Below, one piece after another: positions 1,617 through 12,427 of a DNA stretch of 16,163 nt (positions are counted from its first letter, which is position 1; every line of letters begins with the position of its first letter). Source of the stretch: Candidatus Roizmanbacteria bacterium RIFCSPHIGHO2_02_FULL_43_11. GTDB taxonomy: Bacteria > Patescibacteriota > Microgenomatia > UBA1406 > HO2-37-13b. The position numbers and the translations under genes are program-made. The stretch is from contig MFZT01000033.1 in assembly GCA_001789515.1 (NCBI GenBank), positions 19,970 to 36,132 of the forward strand, in the 5' to 3' direction. The notes beneath the pieces were generated by a model. The model had not been told where the DNA came from, did not search any database, and worked only from the letters and a program-made list of their open reading frames with translations.

Positions 1617-1721
1617 TTGACAATTAGGCCTGGAAATTAAATGTAATCGCCAAAAAAGAACTATTACAAAGCTACTTGGCAAATTGATTCTCAATCTTAA
1701 GAATTAATTTGCGGGATATTA
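1617..1721 (+). other. 5' half of the long 23S processing stalk
   Basis: Successive blocks upstream of the 23S pair with blocks downstream of it. TTGACAATTAGGCCTGGA (1617-1634) pairs with TCCAGGCCTTGTTGTCCAA (6256-6274). CTATTACAAAGCTACTT (1661-1677) pairs with about 6229-6244. CTTAAGAATTAATTTGCGGG (1696-1715) pairs with the segment ending at 6230. GCGGGATATTA (1711-1721) pairs with 6206-6216. Together they form an imperfect extended helix that closes the 23S domain, as expected for RNase III-type precursor processing. Confidence 0.7.
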
Positions 1722-2043
1722 TGTAATGCTTATGGTGGATGCCTAGGTAATTTGAGCCGAAGAAGGACGGGTGCTTAAGCCCGATATCGTCGATGAGCCC
1801 TTAAGCAGGCACTTCAATCGGCGGTTTCCGAATGGGATAACCCTTTAACCAGCTTTAGAAATGATGCTGGGGGGAACCTGATGAACTGAAACATCTAAGT
1901 AATCAGAGGAAGAGAAATCAACAGAGATTCTGTGAGTAGCGGCGAGCGAAAGCGGAACAGCCCAAACCACTCCCTCGGGAGTGGGGTTGCGGGACGTGCA
2001 ATGTGGGATCACAAAGCGTTAGGAGAATGGTCTGGAAAGGCCA

Positions 2044-2074
<31 letters not shown>

Positions 2075-2172
2075 ACGCGATGTGCCCTAGCGCGACTCCC
2101 AAGTACTACGGGACACGGAAAACCCTGTAGGAATCTGGGGCGGTCATGCTCCAAGGCTAAATACTCAAATTA

Positions 2173-2211
<39 letters not shown>

Positions 2212-2338
2212 TCCCCCGGCGAGGGGAGTGAAATAGAACCTGAAACCATAAGCTAACAAACCGTGAGAGCTTCACCTTCGGGTGGGGTGATCACGTGCCT
2301 ATTGAAGAATGAGCCAGCGAGTTTTCAATGTCTGCGAG

Positions 2339-2499
2339 AAGCCACCATAATACAATGTTTCATTGCGAAACGTAAAGCATTTTAAGCGAAGGAAGTGAAG
2401 ATTGACAAAGAAGTAGCAAAACGCTACTTTTAGGAGATCTGAGCTTCCTGCAGCCAAAATGATTTATGTTGTAGTAGAAATAATGTGTTATGGTGGCTT
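2339..2499 (+). other. Helix-25 intervening sequence (IVS-like insert) in 23S rRNA
   Basis: About 161 nt is inserted where a typical 23S has the short tip of helix 25, between the CAGCGAG block and CAAAGGTTAACC. Its ends form a 16-bp stem: AAGCCACCATAA (2339-2350) with TTATGGTGGCTT (2488-2499), continuing for four more pairs. An inner hairpin AGTAGC/GCTACT lies near 2412-2428. It lacks group I core motifs and is too short for the IVS-encoded four-helix protein found in some spirochaetes. IVSs at this helix in Salmonella and Leptospira are excised by RNase III without religation, leaving fragmented 23S. The same fate is inferred here. An unspliced lineage-specific helix extension is the alternative. 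Confidence 0.65.
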
Positions 2500-3862
2500 C
2501 AAAGGTTAACCAATTTTAATTGGGAAGCCATAGCGAAAGCAATTTTCTGTGAAAGCAGAAAAGGGTCTTAATTAGGGCCTTGAGTAGATATTGACGGACC
2601 CGAAACCAGGTGAGCTAACCATGAGCAGGGTGAATTTCGAGTAACATCGGAAGGAGGCCCGAACCCGTTATCGGTGAAATGATTTGGGATGACTTGTGGT
2701 TAGAGGTAAAATGCCTATCGTACCTGGAGATAGCTGGTTCTCCCCGAGATATATTTAGGTATAGCCTTTTAGAGTAACGTGTGGGGTAAAGCTACTGAAT
2801 GGATCAAGGAGGCTTACGCTAACTTGATCCAATCAAACTCTGAATACGCACGCTTGGATCTAAAGGAGTCAGACTTGCTCGGATAAGCGAGTATGGTCGA
2901 AAGGGAAACAGCCCAGACTCCCATCTAAGGCCTCCAAATGATCGTTAAGTGGGTAAGGAAGTGAGATTTCAAAGACAGACGGGAAGTTGGCTTAGAAGCA
3001 GCCATCTTTTAAAGAAAGCGTAACAGCTCACCGTAATATGTTGCCTTCGGGCGACATGAGGTCTTGCGCCGAAAATGATCGAGGCTCAAACGATCTGCCG
3101 ACGATGGAGATTTATCCAGCCTAGCTGGATGAGTGGTAGGGGAGCTTTCTATATGCAGCGAAGCTGTCGCCGTAAGGCATGGTGGAGCGTATAGAAGTGA
3201 GAATGCTGGCATAAGTAGCGAATCTTACGGTGAAAATCCGTAATGCCGAAAATCCAAGGTTTCCTCAGCAACGTACATCGACTGAGGGTTAGTCGGATCT
3301 AAGGGCTCCTCCGAAAGGAGCGTCTCGATGTACAAGCCGTTAATATTCGGCTACCGTGTAGTATGCGTTATTATGTTTGCAGTGACGAAATGGGTTAGGC
3401 AGGGCCTTCTATATGAAGGTTTAAGCAGCAAGTCTTCGGGCAAGCTGTGAATACAACCTTACGCAAGTGAGGGAGTCTGCTGACATCCGTTTCCGGGAAA
3501 AGCTGCATGCAGAGTGTGCTATGCGTCCGTACCGCAAACCGACACAGGTGGATTGGTAGAGTATACCAAGGCATTCGAGTAATGGTAGTTCAAGGAACTC
3601 GGCAAACAAGCTGGACGTAACTTCGGGATATGTCCTCCCTGAATAGCAATATTTAGGGCGCAGCTAACGACTTTCAACTGACTGTTTAGCAAAAACACAG
3701 CTCCCTGCAAACCGGAAACGGGACGTATAGGGGGTGAGGCCTGTCCAGTGCTGGTAAGTTAAGAATTGGGGTTGACTTCTGTAATTTATTATGGACAGAG
3801 GCTCTGATTTAAGCTCCAGTGAACGACAGCGGTAACTCTGACCGTTCTAAGGTAGCGTAGTC

Positions 3863-3896
<34 letters not shown>

Positions 3897-4315
3897 TTAA
3901 CAAGTTGAAAACTGTCTTGAACTACTGCTCGGCGAAATTGCAATGGCTGTGAAGATGCGGCCTTCCTGCACCAGGACAAAAAGACCCCGGGAGCTTTACT
4001 GAAACTTATTATTGACAAGAGATTATTAACTGTTTAGCGTAGGAGGGAGACTTTAAGTCGACAATGAAACACCTCTCTTTAATAATCTTGCGTCTGACCT
4101 TGCGAAAGTGAGGGACAGTGGTAGGTGGTCAGTTTAACTGGGGCGGTTTCCTCCAAAAGCGTAACGGAGGAGCGCAAAGGTTGGCTTGTTCCGGATGGAA
4201 ATCGGAATGTACGTGTAAACGCATAAGCCAGCTTGACTGTGAGGGATACAACCCGATCAGGTTCGAAAGAAGGCGTTAGTGATCCCCCGATCGATTATGA
4301 TTGTCGGCGGGGCTT

Positions 4316-4353
<38 letters not shown>

Positions 4354-4402
4354 CTCCTGAGCGTTCATAGCGACGGGGAGGTTCGGCACCTCGATGTCGG
4401 CT

Positions 4403-4697
4403 CGATTAGGGTCGCTGCCTGAGTAATCAGGCATGAAAAACAACTAGCTCATAACGGTGGACTCCATGCTAGAATGAACTATTCAATATGGACAATACCG
4501 TGGGAAGTCAGCAATTACGATGATTAAAATATCCTTCACCTAACGGATATAAAATTGCTTGACCCCGTAACGACTGATCCCAAGGCATAATGCTACGGGT
4601 GAGATAGAAATGTTCAAGTTCTATCAAACGCTAGTCCCCATATGGTGAAATATGGGTGAAGGTATAGTCTACACTGCAAGTAATTGCAGATTTTGTG
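4403..4697 (+). ncRNA. Group I intron 1 in 23S (ORF-less, 295 nt)
   Basis: Inserted after the U equivalent to E. coli U2511 (exon GGCT). The exon resumes with CATCGCATCC. Both group I boundary rules hold: U before the 5' site and G4697 as the terminal nucleotide. P1 is explicit: exon CGGCT (4398-4402) pairs with GGTCG (4410-4414), with a U-G wobble at the splice site, and the helix is extended by C4403-G4409. P2 hairpin is CCTGA-GTAA-TCAGG. A P6-like stem GCAATT/AATTGC encloses ATATCC/GGATAT. The P7 strands are in GTAACGACT (4567-4575) and GGTATAGTC (4661-4669). The P8-like hairpin is CCATAT/ATATGG and the P9 hairpin is CTGCAAGTAATTGCAG. It is closely related to intron 2 but carries no reading frame. 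Confidence 0.85.
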
Positions 4698-4719
4698 CAT
4701 CGCATCCTGGGGCTGTAGT

Positions 4720-5465
4720 AGAATAATCTGCTATCCTTCATGGAAACATGAGGGTAATATACGGATCCAAAACGGTGAAGACCATATTGTTCGTGAATTA
4801 ACAGAGTTCACAAAAGTTTCACTTATATAGTGTAAACTCGAGATCATTATGGTTAATACCGTGGGAAAGAACTGTTCCGAAGCTGATAAAGCTTATATTG
4901 CAGGTTTTCTTGATGCTGATGGTGCTATTATGGCTCATGTTGAGCGTAATAGCGAGTTAATCTATAAATTTCGAGTGCGAGTCTCAATTGCCTTATATCA
5001 ATCACAAAATGCAGTTATTGAGTGGATGTATAAAAAACTTGAGACTGGTTCAGTTACTAAGCAGCGGAACTTGTATAAGTGGAATACAACTGATCAGAAT
5101 GCTGTAAGGGTAATTTTGACAGTGTTGAAACCATATTTGCGGGTTAAGAAAAAGCAAGCTGAACTTGCTTTATCAATTATGAATACACCCATCTGTTCAA
5201 AAAGAAAACTTCTTTATGTAGCAACATTAGCTGATGCATTGTGTTCACTGAATGTCAGATCTCAAAATTCTGGCATGAAGAATGTAACAATGATCAAGGA
5301 ATACTTCTCCTGTAACGACTAAGTGTGATGATTTGAGTTATCACACAAGATAGATTCATTCAATTGAATTTATAATACGGTCCGCACCTACGTTGTGCTT
5401 GGTGACAAGCGGCAATATGGTGAAGGTATAGTCTGACACTTGTAGTAATACAAGATTACAGATTG
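4720..5465 (+). ncRNA. Group I intron 2 in 23S with homing endonuclease (746 nt)
   Basis: Inserted after the U equivalent to E. coli U2533 (exon CTGTAGT), resuming at AGGTCCCAAGGG. The terminal nucleotide is G5465. P1 is a 7-bp helix: GTAGT|AG (4715-4721) with CTGCTAT (4728-4734) around loop AATAAT, with U4719-G4730 as the splice-site wobble. The conserved core is shared with intron 1: AATACCGTGGGAA (4855-4867), GTAACGACT (5312-5320) and GGTGAAGGTATAGTCT (5419-5434). The P9 hairpin CTTG/CAAG follows near 5438-5453. The homing endonuclease gene occupies the interval between the first two core blocks. Only 22 nt of exon separate this intron from intron 1. Confidence 0.88.
4849..5322 (+). CDS. 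LAGLIDADG homing endonuclease (single motif, intron-encoded)
   Basis: A 157-residue protein with one LAGLIDADG motif near the N terminus (YIAGFLDADGAI, about residues 16-27; D24 is the expected catalytic acidic residue). Single-motif members such as I-CreI act as homodimers that cut the intronless allele of the host gene and so drive intron homing. A later segment (TLADALCSLNVRSQNSG) resembles the C-terminal half of this family. There is no Shine-Dalgarno sequence. The start at 4849 lies 6 nt before the conserved intron-core block AATACCGTGGGAA, so codons 3-7 use that block. The last codons TGT AAC GAC TAA are the P7 strand itself. The protein therefore begins and ends inside ribozyme structure. 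The catalytic motif is intact and the frame has no disruption. Cleavage is inferred to be at the 23S site near E. coli 2533. Confidence 0.9.
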   Translation: MVNTVGKNCSEADKAYIAGFLDADGAIMAHVERNSELIYKFRVRVSIALYQSQNAVIEWMYKKLETGSVTKQRNLYKWNTTDQNAVRVILTVLKPYLRVKKKQAELALSIMNTPICSKRKLLYVATLADALCSLNVRSQNSGMKNVTMIKEYFSCND

Positions 5466-5536
5466 AGGTCCCAAGGGTTGGTCTGTTCGCCCATTAAAGC
5501 GGTACGCGAGCTGGGTTCAGAGCGTCGTGAGACAGC

Positions 5537-5881
5537 TGGTAACACGCTGAACTGTCTCTTTTCCTAGACGTAAAAATAAATCTTTTTGTCCATAACATAA
5601 TAGGAAAATATAAATCTGGCTATATGCTGGAACATCTTGATAAGAGTAGGTTACTCGGATATAATCCAGTGAAAATATCTGCTCGTTTTACGGAGTTGCC
5701 TTTGGGCTCCTGTAAGGCAAGACAATCAGCAGGAAAGACTAGATATAAACGATCTTCACCATTGAAGATATGAAATCTAGAATCCCCACAGACTATACGC
5801 CAGACATAGCGGTATAATAATGCTGCTTAAAGATATAGTCGAATCCCTATGGTGACATAGGGTACTAACAATTAGAGTATG
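5537..5881 (+). ncRNA. Group I intron 3 in 23S (ORF-less, 345 nt)
   Basis: Inserted near E. coli 2604/2605, at the 3' strand of helix 93. The ligated exons read GACAGC|TCGGACTC, which restores the pairing GAGC/GCTC. The group I core is textbook: Q segment AATCAGCAGG (5724-5733), R segment with GACTATA (5791-5797), S segment AAGATATAGTC (5830-5840) forming P7 GACTATA/TATAGTC, and P9 hairpin CCCTAT/ATAGGG (5845-5862). The P5-type hairpin is TTGCCT/AGGCAA just before Q. These segments differ from those of introns 1 and 2, so this is another subgroup. The 5' site appears to follow C5536 rather than U. The boundary has one-nucleotide ambiguity because T occurs at both ends. Confidence 0.85.
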
Positions 5882-6205
5882 TCGGACTCTATCCGGTGCA
5901 GGCGTTTTGATTTTTGAGAGGACTCGCTTCTAGTACGAGAGGACCGAAGTGAGGGAATCCCTGGTGTACCAGTTGTCTCATAAGGGCATCGCTGGGTAGC
6001 TATATTCCTATGAGATAAGCACTGAAAGCATCTAAAGTTCGAAACTCACCTCAAGATGAGAAATCTATCCAGCACCATTTTTGTATTATAGATCTTTCTA
6101 TAGCACAGAAATGGTGCTGGTCAGGCCCCCAGTAGATCACTGGGTTGATAGGCGCACGGTGTACGCTCCGTAAGGAGTTTAGCCTATGCGTACTAATGGC
6201 CGAAA

Positions 6206-6274
6206 TAATATCCCGCAAATAAGTTTTTAAGTATTTGTAGTAGAAAGCATAATAATCCAGGCCTTGTTGTCCAA
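6206..6274 (+). other. 3' half of the 23S processing stalk
   Basis: Complements the 5' half around 1617-1721: TAATATCCCGC (6206-6216) is the 23S terminal helix strand, and TCCAGGCCTTGTTGTCCAA (6256-6274) pairs with the outer block upstream. The rest of the gap to topA (6275-6439) is AT-rich. It shows no 5S rRNA and no tRNA; only the topA promoter is recognisable. Confidence 0.7.
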
Positions 6275-11739: not shown

Positions 11740-12006
11740 ATGTTAAAAACCTACTTATACATCCCTGAACAATTGGAGGAAAAAATTGTCTATACCGCAA
11801 AAGCTCTTAAGCAAAGCAAAGCGGAAGTTATACGTCAAGCTCTTGAAAAAGGAATTCATGCTGTTCAACAACGGGGGACTGCTTCTGCAAAAGCTTTACT
11901 AGAAGTTGCCGAACTAGGTAAAAACCATCAAATAAAAGGTCCTAAAGACAGTTCTGAACGGATGGATGATTATTTATGGGTTAATGACAGCAGCAATAAT
12001 GAATAA
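11740..12006 (+). CDS. vapB: VapB-type antitoxin (ribbon-helix-helix)
   Basis: An 88-residue protein. Residues about 3-39 (TYLYIPEQLEEKIVYTAKAL to EVIRQALEKGI) fit a CopG/Arc-type ribbon-helix-helix DNA-binding domain: one short strand and two helices. The C-terminal segment SERMDDYLW (about 72-80) resembles the toxin-wrapping tail of VapB proteins. It overlaps the next gene by 8 nt, as is normal for translationally coupled TA pairs. The ATG is at the predicted transcription start, so its mRNA would be leaderless. The function, neutralising the VapC-like toxin and repressing the operon, follows from the family and the context. Confidence 0.8.
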   Translation: MLKTYLYIPEQLEEKIVYTAKALKQSKAEVIRQALEKGIHAVQQRGTASAKALLEVAELGKNHQIKGPKDSSERMDDYLWVNDSSNNE

Positions 12007-12427
12007 ACCACCTAAAGTCATAGTAGATGCTGATGCTATTATTGCTCAGGCTAATCCATATGACATGCATCACAAAACAGCGGGAACAATATCTGAAGCT
12101 CTAATAAAAATGAATGCTCAAGTGATATATCCAAGCACGGCTATTGTCGAATCTAATGCTTTTATTCAGCGCCCTCTAAATAGTTCCGCCAGCGCATATG
12201 GTACAGCGGTTGTTTTCACAAATCCTGAAGTACAAGTTGCAGAAGTCAATCAACAAACACTGAAAACTGCTTTGAAGTATTTTAGTCCAACAACAAGTAA
12301 AAAAAATACTCTGTTTGATTGTATAGTTGCGGCTGTTGCAGATGAACAGAAAGCAGATGCTATTTTCAGCTTTGACAACTTTTACAGAAAAAAAGGGTTT
12401 AAGCTTGCGTCTGAAATTGTTAAATAG
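11999..12427 (+). CDS. vapC: VapC-type PIN-domain toxin (putative ribonuclease)
   Basis: A 142-residue PIN domain. The catalytic acidic residues are all visible: D10 in VIVDADAII, E51 in STAIVESNAF, D107 in FDCIVAAVADE and D126 in IFSFDNFYRKKGF. VapC toxins are Mg-dependent RNases that cut tRNA or rRNA when antitoxin is lost. I chose ATG 11999, which overlaps the vapB stop and puts the first strand directly at the N terminus. Two upstream in-frame ATGs (11966 and 11984) would add residues encoded inside vapB. No inactivating change is seen. There is no clear terminator downstream. The target is unknown; with tRNA-Glu nearby and introns in 23S, no target should be presumed. Confidence 0.85.
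   Translation: MNKPPKVIVDADAIIAQANPYDMHHKTAGTISEALIKMNAQVIYPSTAIVESNAFIQRPLNSSASAYGTAVVFTNPEVQVAEVNQQTLKTALKYFSPTTSKKNTLFDCIVAAVADEQKADAIFSFDNFYRKKGFKLASEIVK

Follow-up and report, generated by a model that had tools for sequence, protein, structure and literature searches.

The 23S rRNA gene in the window (the whole stretch of DNA analysed here, 16,163 nucleotides from a member of the Patescibacteria, or CPR) is interrupted at three places in domain V, after U2511, U2533, and C2604 on alignment to E. coli rrlB. The presence of an array of three introns is confirmed and the array is mostly ordinary; its interest lies in the 5′ splice-site pair of the second and third introns. Comparison with related loci suggests that two of the three intron families represented in the window, those at 2533 and 2604, can dispense with the near-universal U-G pair at this junction. 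Judged from the aligned sequences, the guide is matched to the host base at the junction, with U-G at U2511, a paired A, C, or U at 2533, and U-G or C-A at 2604, where there is one exception. We consider it highly probable that this 23S was invaded at three peptidyl-transferase-centre sites by group I introns, most likely through LAGLIDADG homing, with an endonuclease left only in intron 2; splicing, homing, and independent removal of the introns are inferred. With much less assurance, we slightly favour the further reading that these ribozymes fix the cut without the hallmark wobble and that the introns are able to persist at drifting rRNA positions.

Table 1. Features of the interrupted 23S rRNA gene, in window positions.
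Feature	Position	Strand	Size or sequence	Basis
23S rRNA gene (exons and inserts)	1713..6220 (3′ end approximate)	+		Rfam LSU_rRNA_bacteria, 1860.6 bits from 1713; exon alignment to E. coli rrlB
P1 of intron 1	4398..4414	+	CGGCUC (4398-4403) with GGGUCG (4409-4414)	U2511-G at the junction
Intron 1, apparent group I, after U2511	4403..4697	+	295 nt	Starts with C, ends with G; site shared with homologues in L006-L010 and L039; P3 and P9 covary
Exon, E. coli 2512-2533	4698..4719	+	22 nt	Alignment to E. coli, no indels
P1 of intron 2	4715..4734	+	GUAGUAGA (4715-4722) with UCUGCUAU (4727-4734)	U2533-G
Intron 2, apparent group I, after U2533	4720..5465	+	746 nt	Ends with G; encodes an intact LAGLIDADG ORF
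ORF, putative single-domain LAGLIDADG homing endonuclease	4849..5322	+	157 aa	PF00961, 37.1 bits (cut-off 23.1); no internal stop
Exon, E. coli 2534-2604	5466..5536	+	71 nt, last base C2604	Alignment to E. coli, no indels
P1 of intron 3	5529..5558	+	GAGACAGC (5529-5536) with ACUGUCUC (5551-5558); 7 bp	C2604 opposite A
Intron 3, group I, after C2604	5537..5881	+	345 nt	Ends with G; Rfam 78 bits at 5568-5862

The alignment to E. coli rrlB bears out the original prediction on the three sites, given there as U2511, U2533, and about C2604, and on their coordinates, as well as on the exact lengths of the two exons between them, which contain no indels. Placement of intron 3 at 2593 is ruled out by the exon, which runs on via GAGACAG to 2604, with the 3′ exon restarting at 2605; an end after U2605 is likewise ruled out, as the terminal G would be lost and the related locus L126 (A at +1) fixes C2604. 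The 3′ ends of introns 1, 2, and 3 are TTTTGTG, CAGATTG, and GAGTATG, respectively, with a terminal G in all three. Neither intron 1 (4403-4697) nor intron 3 (5537-5881) contains an ORF of at least 80 aa. The assembly (708,812 bases, 87% complete) contains the 23S stretch at 3700-4402 only once. The same gene carries an insert in domain II near E. coli 600 (window 2338-2500) that folds as a single long hairpin of −79 kcal/mol and resembles intervening sequences of the RNase III type. The genome's own 16S (L004 1080-1830, contig C49) is interrupted near E. coli 1498-1500 by a group I-like insert that scores 22 bits, below the Rfam threshold, and encodes a 170-aa LAGLIDADG_3 protein; this site was placed by eye, the script alignment having ended at 1408. 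Elsewhere in the window (11740-12427), overlapping small genes for an Rv0623-like regulator (below cut-off) and a PIN domain protein look like a VapBC-type toxin-antitoxin module.

Against the Rfam model Intron_gpI (RF00028), intron 3 scores 78 bits, above the gathering score of 50, whereas introns 1 and 2 fall below it at 18.3 bits (E 0.081) and 23.4 bits (E 0.0024), respectively; of the three group I introns originally predicted, this search thus recovers the third and not the first two. The sub-threshold scores are a limit of the profile and not a structural feature of the class. In a search of six related loci, no gathering match was located within any 2511 or 2533 intron; a match in L161 (2070-2410) begins in the final bases of the 2533 intron and spans the 2604 intron. 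Because Rfam also missed the 2604 intron of L008 and the 2593 intron of L010, its silence at the 2511 and 2533 introns is no test. The prediction is supported all the same for introns 1 and 2 by the core helices of their relatives: helices covary among those relatives, P7 is nearly invariant, and the introns end in G, so that both look like group I introns.

Of 379 genomes of the phylum searched, 31 (counting that of the window) contain DNA similar to intron 1, and no match is found in phage records. Among the loci returned by this search 2511 is occupied in L006-L010, L039 having been found by another route, and these six together with the window form the L2511 family. In its seven members P7 is invariant (35 of 35 cells paired), 41 of 42 cells are paired in P3 and 20 of 21 in P8, and a single unpaired cell occurs in each of P1, P3, P8, and P9, with none in P2, P4, P5, or P7. 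Inspection by eye reveals no consistent P10 pairing for intron 1. The L2533 family comprises 17 introns, excluding L036, in which the exon region was not mapped, and L037, L159, and L180, in which the aligner misplaced the junction and A2533 is observed. With the ORF cut out, all cells are paired in P1 (102/102), P3 (102/102, 13 of them with both sides changed), P4 (51/51), P7 (85/85), and P8 (68/68), as are 101 of 102 in P9. One pair of P7 varies, on a single side only, and there is no two-sided change; as judged from these alignments P7, nearly invariant in both families, contributes no covariation. For P1 and P2 of the L2533 introns, 224 of 224 cells are paired and the covariation score is 0.667, compared with 0.195 in shuffles, none of 500 of which scores as high. 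By the cruder measures of pairs with two-sided change and of pair types, 8 and 3 of 500 shuffles are as high, and structures slid along the alignment are 45-55% paired. This test uses 16 of the 17 rows, omitting L040 for a 41-nt insert in P1; the contig bearing L040 is titled Chlamydiae bacterium MAG, and the 2533-family intron on it reflects either transfer or mis-binning. The final base ahead of the 3′ exon is G in all 16 mapped L2533 introns. Extra hairpins are present between P7 5′ and P3 3′, presumably as in subgroup IA.

In the window itself, the P1 helices of introns 1 and 2 are equalled in folding by 2 and 1 of 200 shuffles, respectively, and folding together with alignment upholds the P1 helix, U-G wobble, and terminal G that had been written out for these two introns. 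For intron 3 the figure is 8 of 200, and folding by itself is weak support. The earlier account of P1 overlooks the pair of intron 3, which at the junction is C-A and not U-G; on the evidence of C2604 opposite A, we would class intron 3 as a variant member of group I and not a typical one.

The rule from which this pair departs is evident at eight other sites (2262, 2449, 2500, 2504, 2511, 2593, 2596, and 2656), where the last exon base is U in 126 of 129 distinct introns. The three that differ (L021, L037, and L175) look like aligner misplacements, as likewise appears to be the case for one A at 2604 (L140), which has U in two further readings. The junction is U-G in 7 of 7 L2511 introns. At the opposite end of the intron, 11 of 33 distinct introns at 23S 2500 end in A and not in G (L009, L019, L029, L037, L041, L048, L067, L130, L162, L173, and L176).

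At 2533 the last exon base and its guide form A-U in 13 of the 17 introns, C-G in three, of which two (L044 and L048) are near copies, and U-G in one, that of the window. The 2530 pair of P1 also varies and is still matched (G-C in 14, A-U in two, U-A in one), and the other four P1 pairs are invariant. The A and C types lack a U at any of the five final exon positions, and therefore shifting the cut by one or two bases cannot restore U-G. The alternative that the relatives are cut after 2532 and have G2533 in the host is ruled out, as base 2533 in 93 distinct loci without an insert there is A in 44, U in 28, C in 21, and G in none. The L2533 intron of G183, a genome of the same phylum (L107 and L160), is identical in its ends and length to that of L041, on a contig named Uhrbacteria.

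At 2604, the junction pair in 24 distinct introns is U-G in 20, C-A in three (the window, L110, and L126), and U-A in one (L035); this set remains after 6 of 30 motif rows were dropped by their flanks (L007, L037, L061, L069, L088, and one of two L035 rows). Exon C has guide A in 3 of 3 cases and exon U has guide G in 20 of 21 (Fisher p 0.002, relatedness ignored). A pattern open to all four exon/guide combinations returned 20 matches in 379 genomes, of which the 15 in 23S, all of them also among these 24 introns, are 12 U/G and 3 C/A, none crossed. The other five (L138, L142, L145, L156, and L157), which lie outside 23S, were rejected as chance matches, and because these are uncrossed too (3 U/G and 2 C/A) the outcome of the search is weaker than it appears. 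In a tree of the 24 introns, the three C-A introns and two U-G introns of the same class form a supported clade of five (99/97); at least four guide-base changes are required, and the AU test does not reject a tree on which C-A arose once (p 0.54). The three C-A cases, with hosts all in one class, may represent fewer than three events. A C-A pair can mimic the geometry of a U-G wobble when protonated, and it is said to have worked in the engineered intron of Doudna in 1989.

The host base at this site varies within a helix. In 91 distinct loci without a 2604 insert the 2590-2604 pair is A-U in 46, C-G in 37, G-C in six, and G-U in two. It is G-C in the window, in L074 of the same genus, and in L075 of the same family, and A-U in L076-L078 of the window's family. 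Neither L074 nor L075 has a 2604 intron, and therefore the change in the host helix seems to have preceded the intron or to have been independent of it. Of the 2604 introns, 16 were reached by routes other than the C/U pattern, and none of these is in a G2604 host, compared with G in 37 of the 91 insert-free loci (p 0.0006); because sampling is uneven, this is only a hint that 2604 introns may avoid G2604 hosts.

The endonuclease ORF of intron 2 shares sequence with the ribozyme. The 5′ strand of P4 (GTGGGAAAG, 4861-4869) falls in its first codons and that of P7 (AACGACTAA, 5314-5322) in its last codons, stop codon included. The protein ends VNxVGK and FSxND, which are encoded by core RNA, are conserved (alignment A1) and may be kept for the sake of the RNA. 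The nearest solved structures are of the I-CreI and I-MsoI types, with phmmer matches within residues 10-151 of 157; all are single-domain LAGLIDADG proteins, but the intron 2 product, encoded at 2533, is a separate homologue and a putative endonuclease. At E 0.001, 101 proteins are similar to it, its own cluster included. The 2533 family was traced via the endonuclease, which led to 38 loci in named genomes, only part of them at 2533, and in a search of 380 genomes in one class 22 genomes matched, five with matches above 200 bits. In L106 the ORF is eroded and the A-U pair at 2533 is kept, a combination that makes it less likely that the intron depends on its own protein in cis.

All three sites are occupied in other genomes of the phylum (several loci from similarity searches failed to align to 23S and were left out). 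None of the three introns is present in five mapped same-family relatives (L074-L078, with G384 and G385 left out of the comparison), two of which carry one at 2500. This absence is most simply explained by recent gain through homing, with loss elsewhere as a less simple alternative. Introns separated by short exons recur among the relatives: 11-nt exons separate the introns at 2500 and 2511 in L009 and those at 2593 and 2604 in L165 and L140, the pair at 2511 and 2533 is found again in L039 and also in L106, where the 2511 insert is visible by its 3′ end only, and the mapped 23S stretches of L045 and L046 have five inserts each. The 11-nt exon of L165 and L140 is mostly taken up by P1 of the second intron (2604). 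Part of PMC10136302 describes exons of 23 nt in phage Twort orf142 and 34 nt in Coxiella 23S, with exon skipping observed in both. Short exons are thus not exceptional, being of 11 nt in three relatives and of 23 and 34 nt in published cases.

Coordinated splicing, which the tight stacking had been taken to imply, is unsupported: as its 3′ exon, intron 1 would use the first bases of the 22-nt exon, from 2512 on, and P1 of intron 2 uses 2529-2533. These uses lie at opposite ends without overlap, and therefore either splicing order would be possible. Under the mechanism proposed here, each intron would fold its own P1 with the end of the preceding exon, cut there with guanosine, and ligate the exons, this two-step pathway removing each intron from the rRNA precursor to give an uninterrupted 23S. 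The first bases of the 22-nt exon would serve intron 1 and the last five intron 2, with no conflict to impose an order. In the A-U and C-G forms at 2533 the cut would be set by other contacts or helpers, and the guide A of intron 3 would give a C-A pair with host C2604, standing in for the shape of the U-G wobble.

The weak Rfam scores of introns 1 and 2, the non-U-G junctions among the relatives of intron 2, and the RNase III-type-looking hairpin insert in the same 23S are also what might be seen if these two introns were derived from group I but no longer self-splicing, and were excised by other nucleases or retained in a fragmented 23S like intervening sequences. An unspliced group I intron in bacterial 23S was reportedly described by Everett in 1999. 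We regard loss of self-splicing as improbable, as the relatives preserve P1 to P9, including the exon-guide pairing, through compensatory changes and G precedes the 3′ exon in every mapped L2533 intron, neither of which is expected of relics. Still less credible is joint removal of introns 1 and 2, in which the 22-nt exon would often be skipped or the two would act as one composite ribozyme, making the stacking functional. The two introns share neither P1 nor 3′ exon bases, a skipped exon would cost 23S, present as one copy in the assembly, 22 nt of its peptidyl-transferase region, and the five mapped same-family relatives are without all three introns; these points stand against the recurrence of the 2511 and 2533 pair in L039 and L106 and against the skipping known for the Twort and Coxiella exons (in part of PMC10136302).

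Agreement between exon and guide at 2533 and 2604 might also be due to inheritance and not to selection, an explanation that we consider unlikely, though less so than either of the foregoing. Homing co-converts the flanking exon, and with flanking exon bases carried along with the intron, exon and guide bases could be inherited as a unit. In this case the introns probably arrived by LAGLIDADG homing, and the minimum of four guide changes on the 2604 tree, with a single C-A origin not rejected, is compatible with such coupling. Nevertheless, C2604 with G2590 also occurs in insert-free L074 and L075 and in 6 of the 91 insert-free loci, base 2533 is already variable where no intron is present, and both members of a pair had to change somewhere for pairing to stay complete.

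The natural intron families at two rRNA sites, whose junctions are A-U, C-G, or U-G at one site and U-G or C-A at the other, provide a ready-made series for testing the role of the wobble with the host rRNA matched, and they suggest how a homing intron can survive when the host base at its site changes. In CPR bacteria, entire families of introns, here those at 2511 and 2533, may escape surveys based on Rfam. In the open full-text literature no naturally occurring family of group I introns whose junctions are Watson-Crick or C-A was found, a novelty that is provisional, with subscription journals mostly outside the scope of the search; nor was any report of group I introns at 23S 2511 or 2533 found in the open literature, in a search with subscription journals and supplements largely outside its scope.

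Comparison with published systems places the array in a known setting. According to parts of a survey of CPR 23S genes (Tsurumaki et al. 2024, PMC11270868), inserts are present in 284 of 348 genes, with group I introns clustered around the peptidyl-transferase centre, and 2604 is named as a LAGLIDADG_1 site. Of the insertion sites predicted in the window, 2604 is thus a published one, and 2511 and 2533 are unnamed in the abstract and a part of section 5 of that paper; judging from their numbers, 23IS9-11 of that paper would be expected somewhere from 1952 to 2593. The window resembles its sites 23IS6-23IS14, as presented in those parts, in having, within domain V, a cluster of several group I introns per gene and LAGLIDADG_1 ORFs in such introns; the same passages, unlike the present analysis, contain no discussion of splice-site pairs. 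As in phage Twort orf142 and Coxiella burnetii 23S (part of PMC10136302), two group I introns surround a very short exon, in one of those cases also in 23S; the sites and hosts are different, and splicing and skipping were seen experimentally in those systems, whereas the window is known from sequence alone. The nearest published case found for the junction is a group B IStron that is spliced after G (part of PMC4227781). As described there, the U-G pair of the IStrons is present and shifted by one base, whereas the A and C types at 2533 have another pair in its place.
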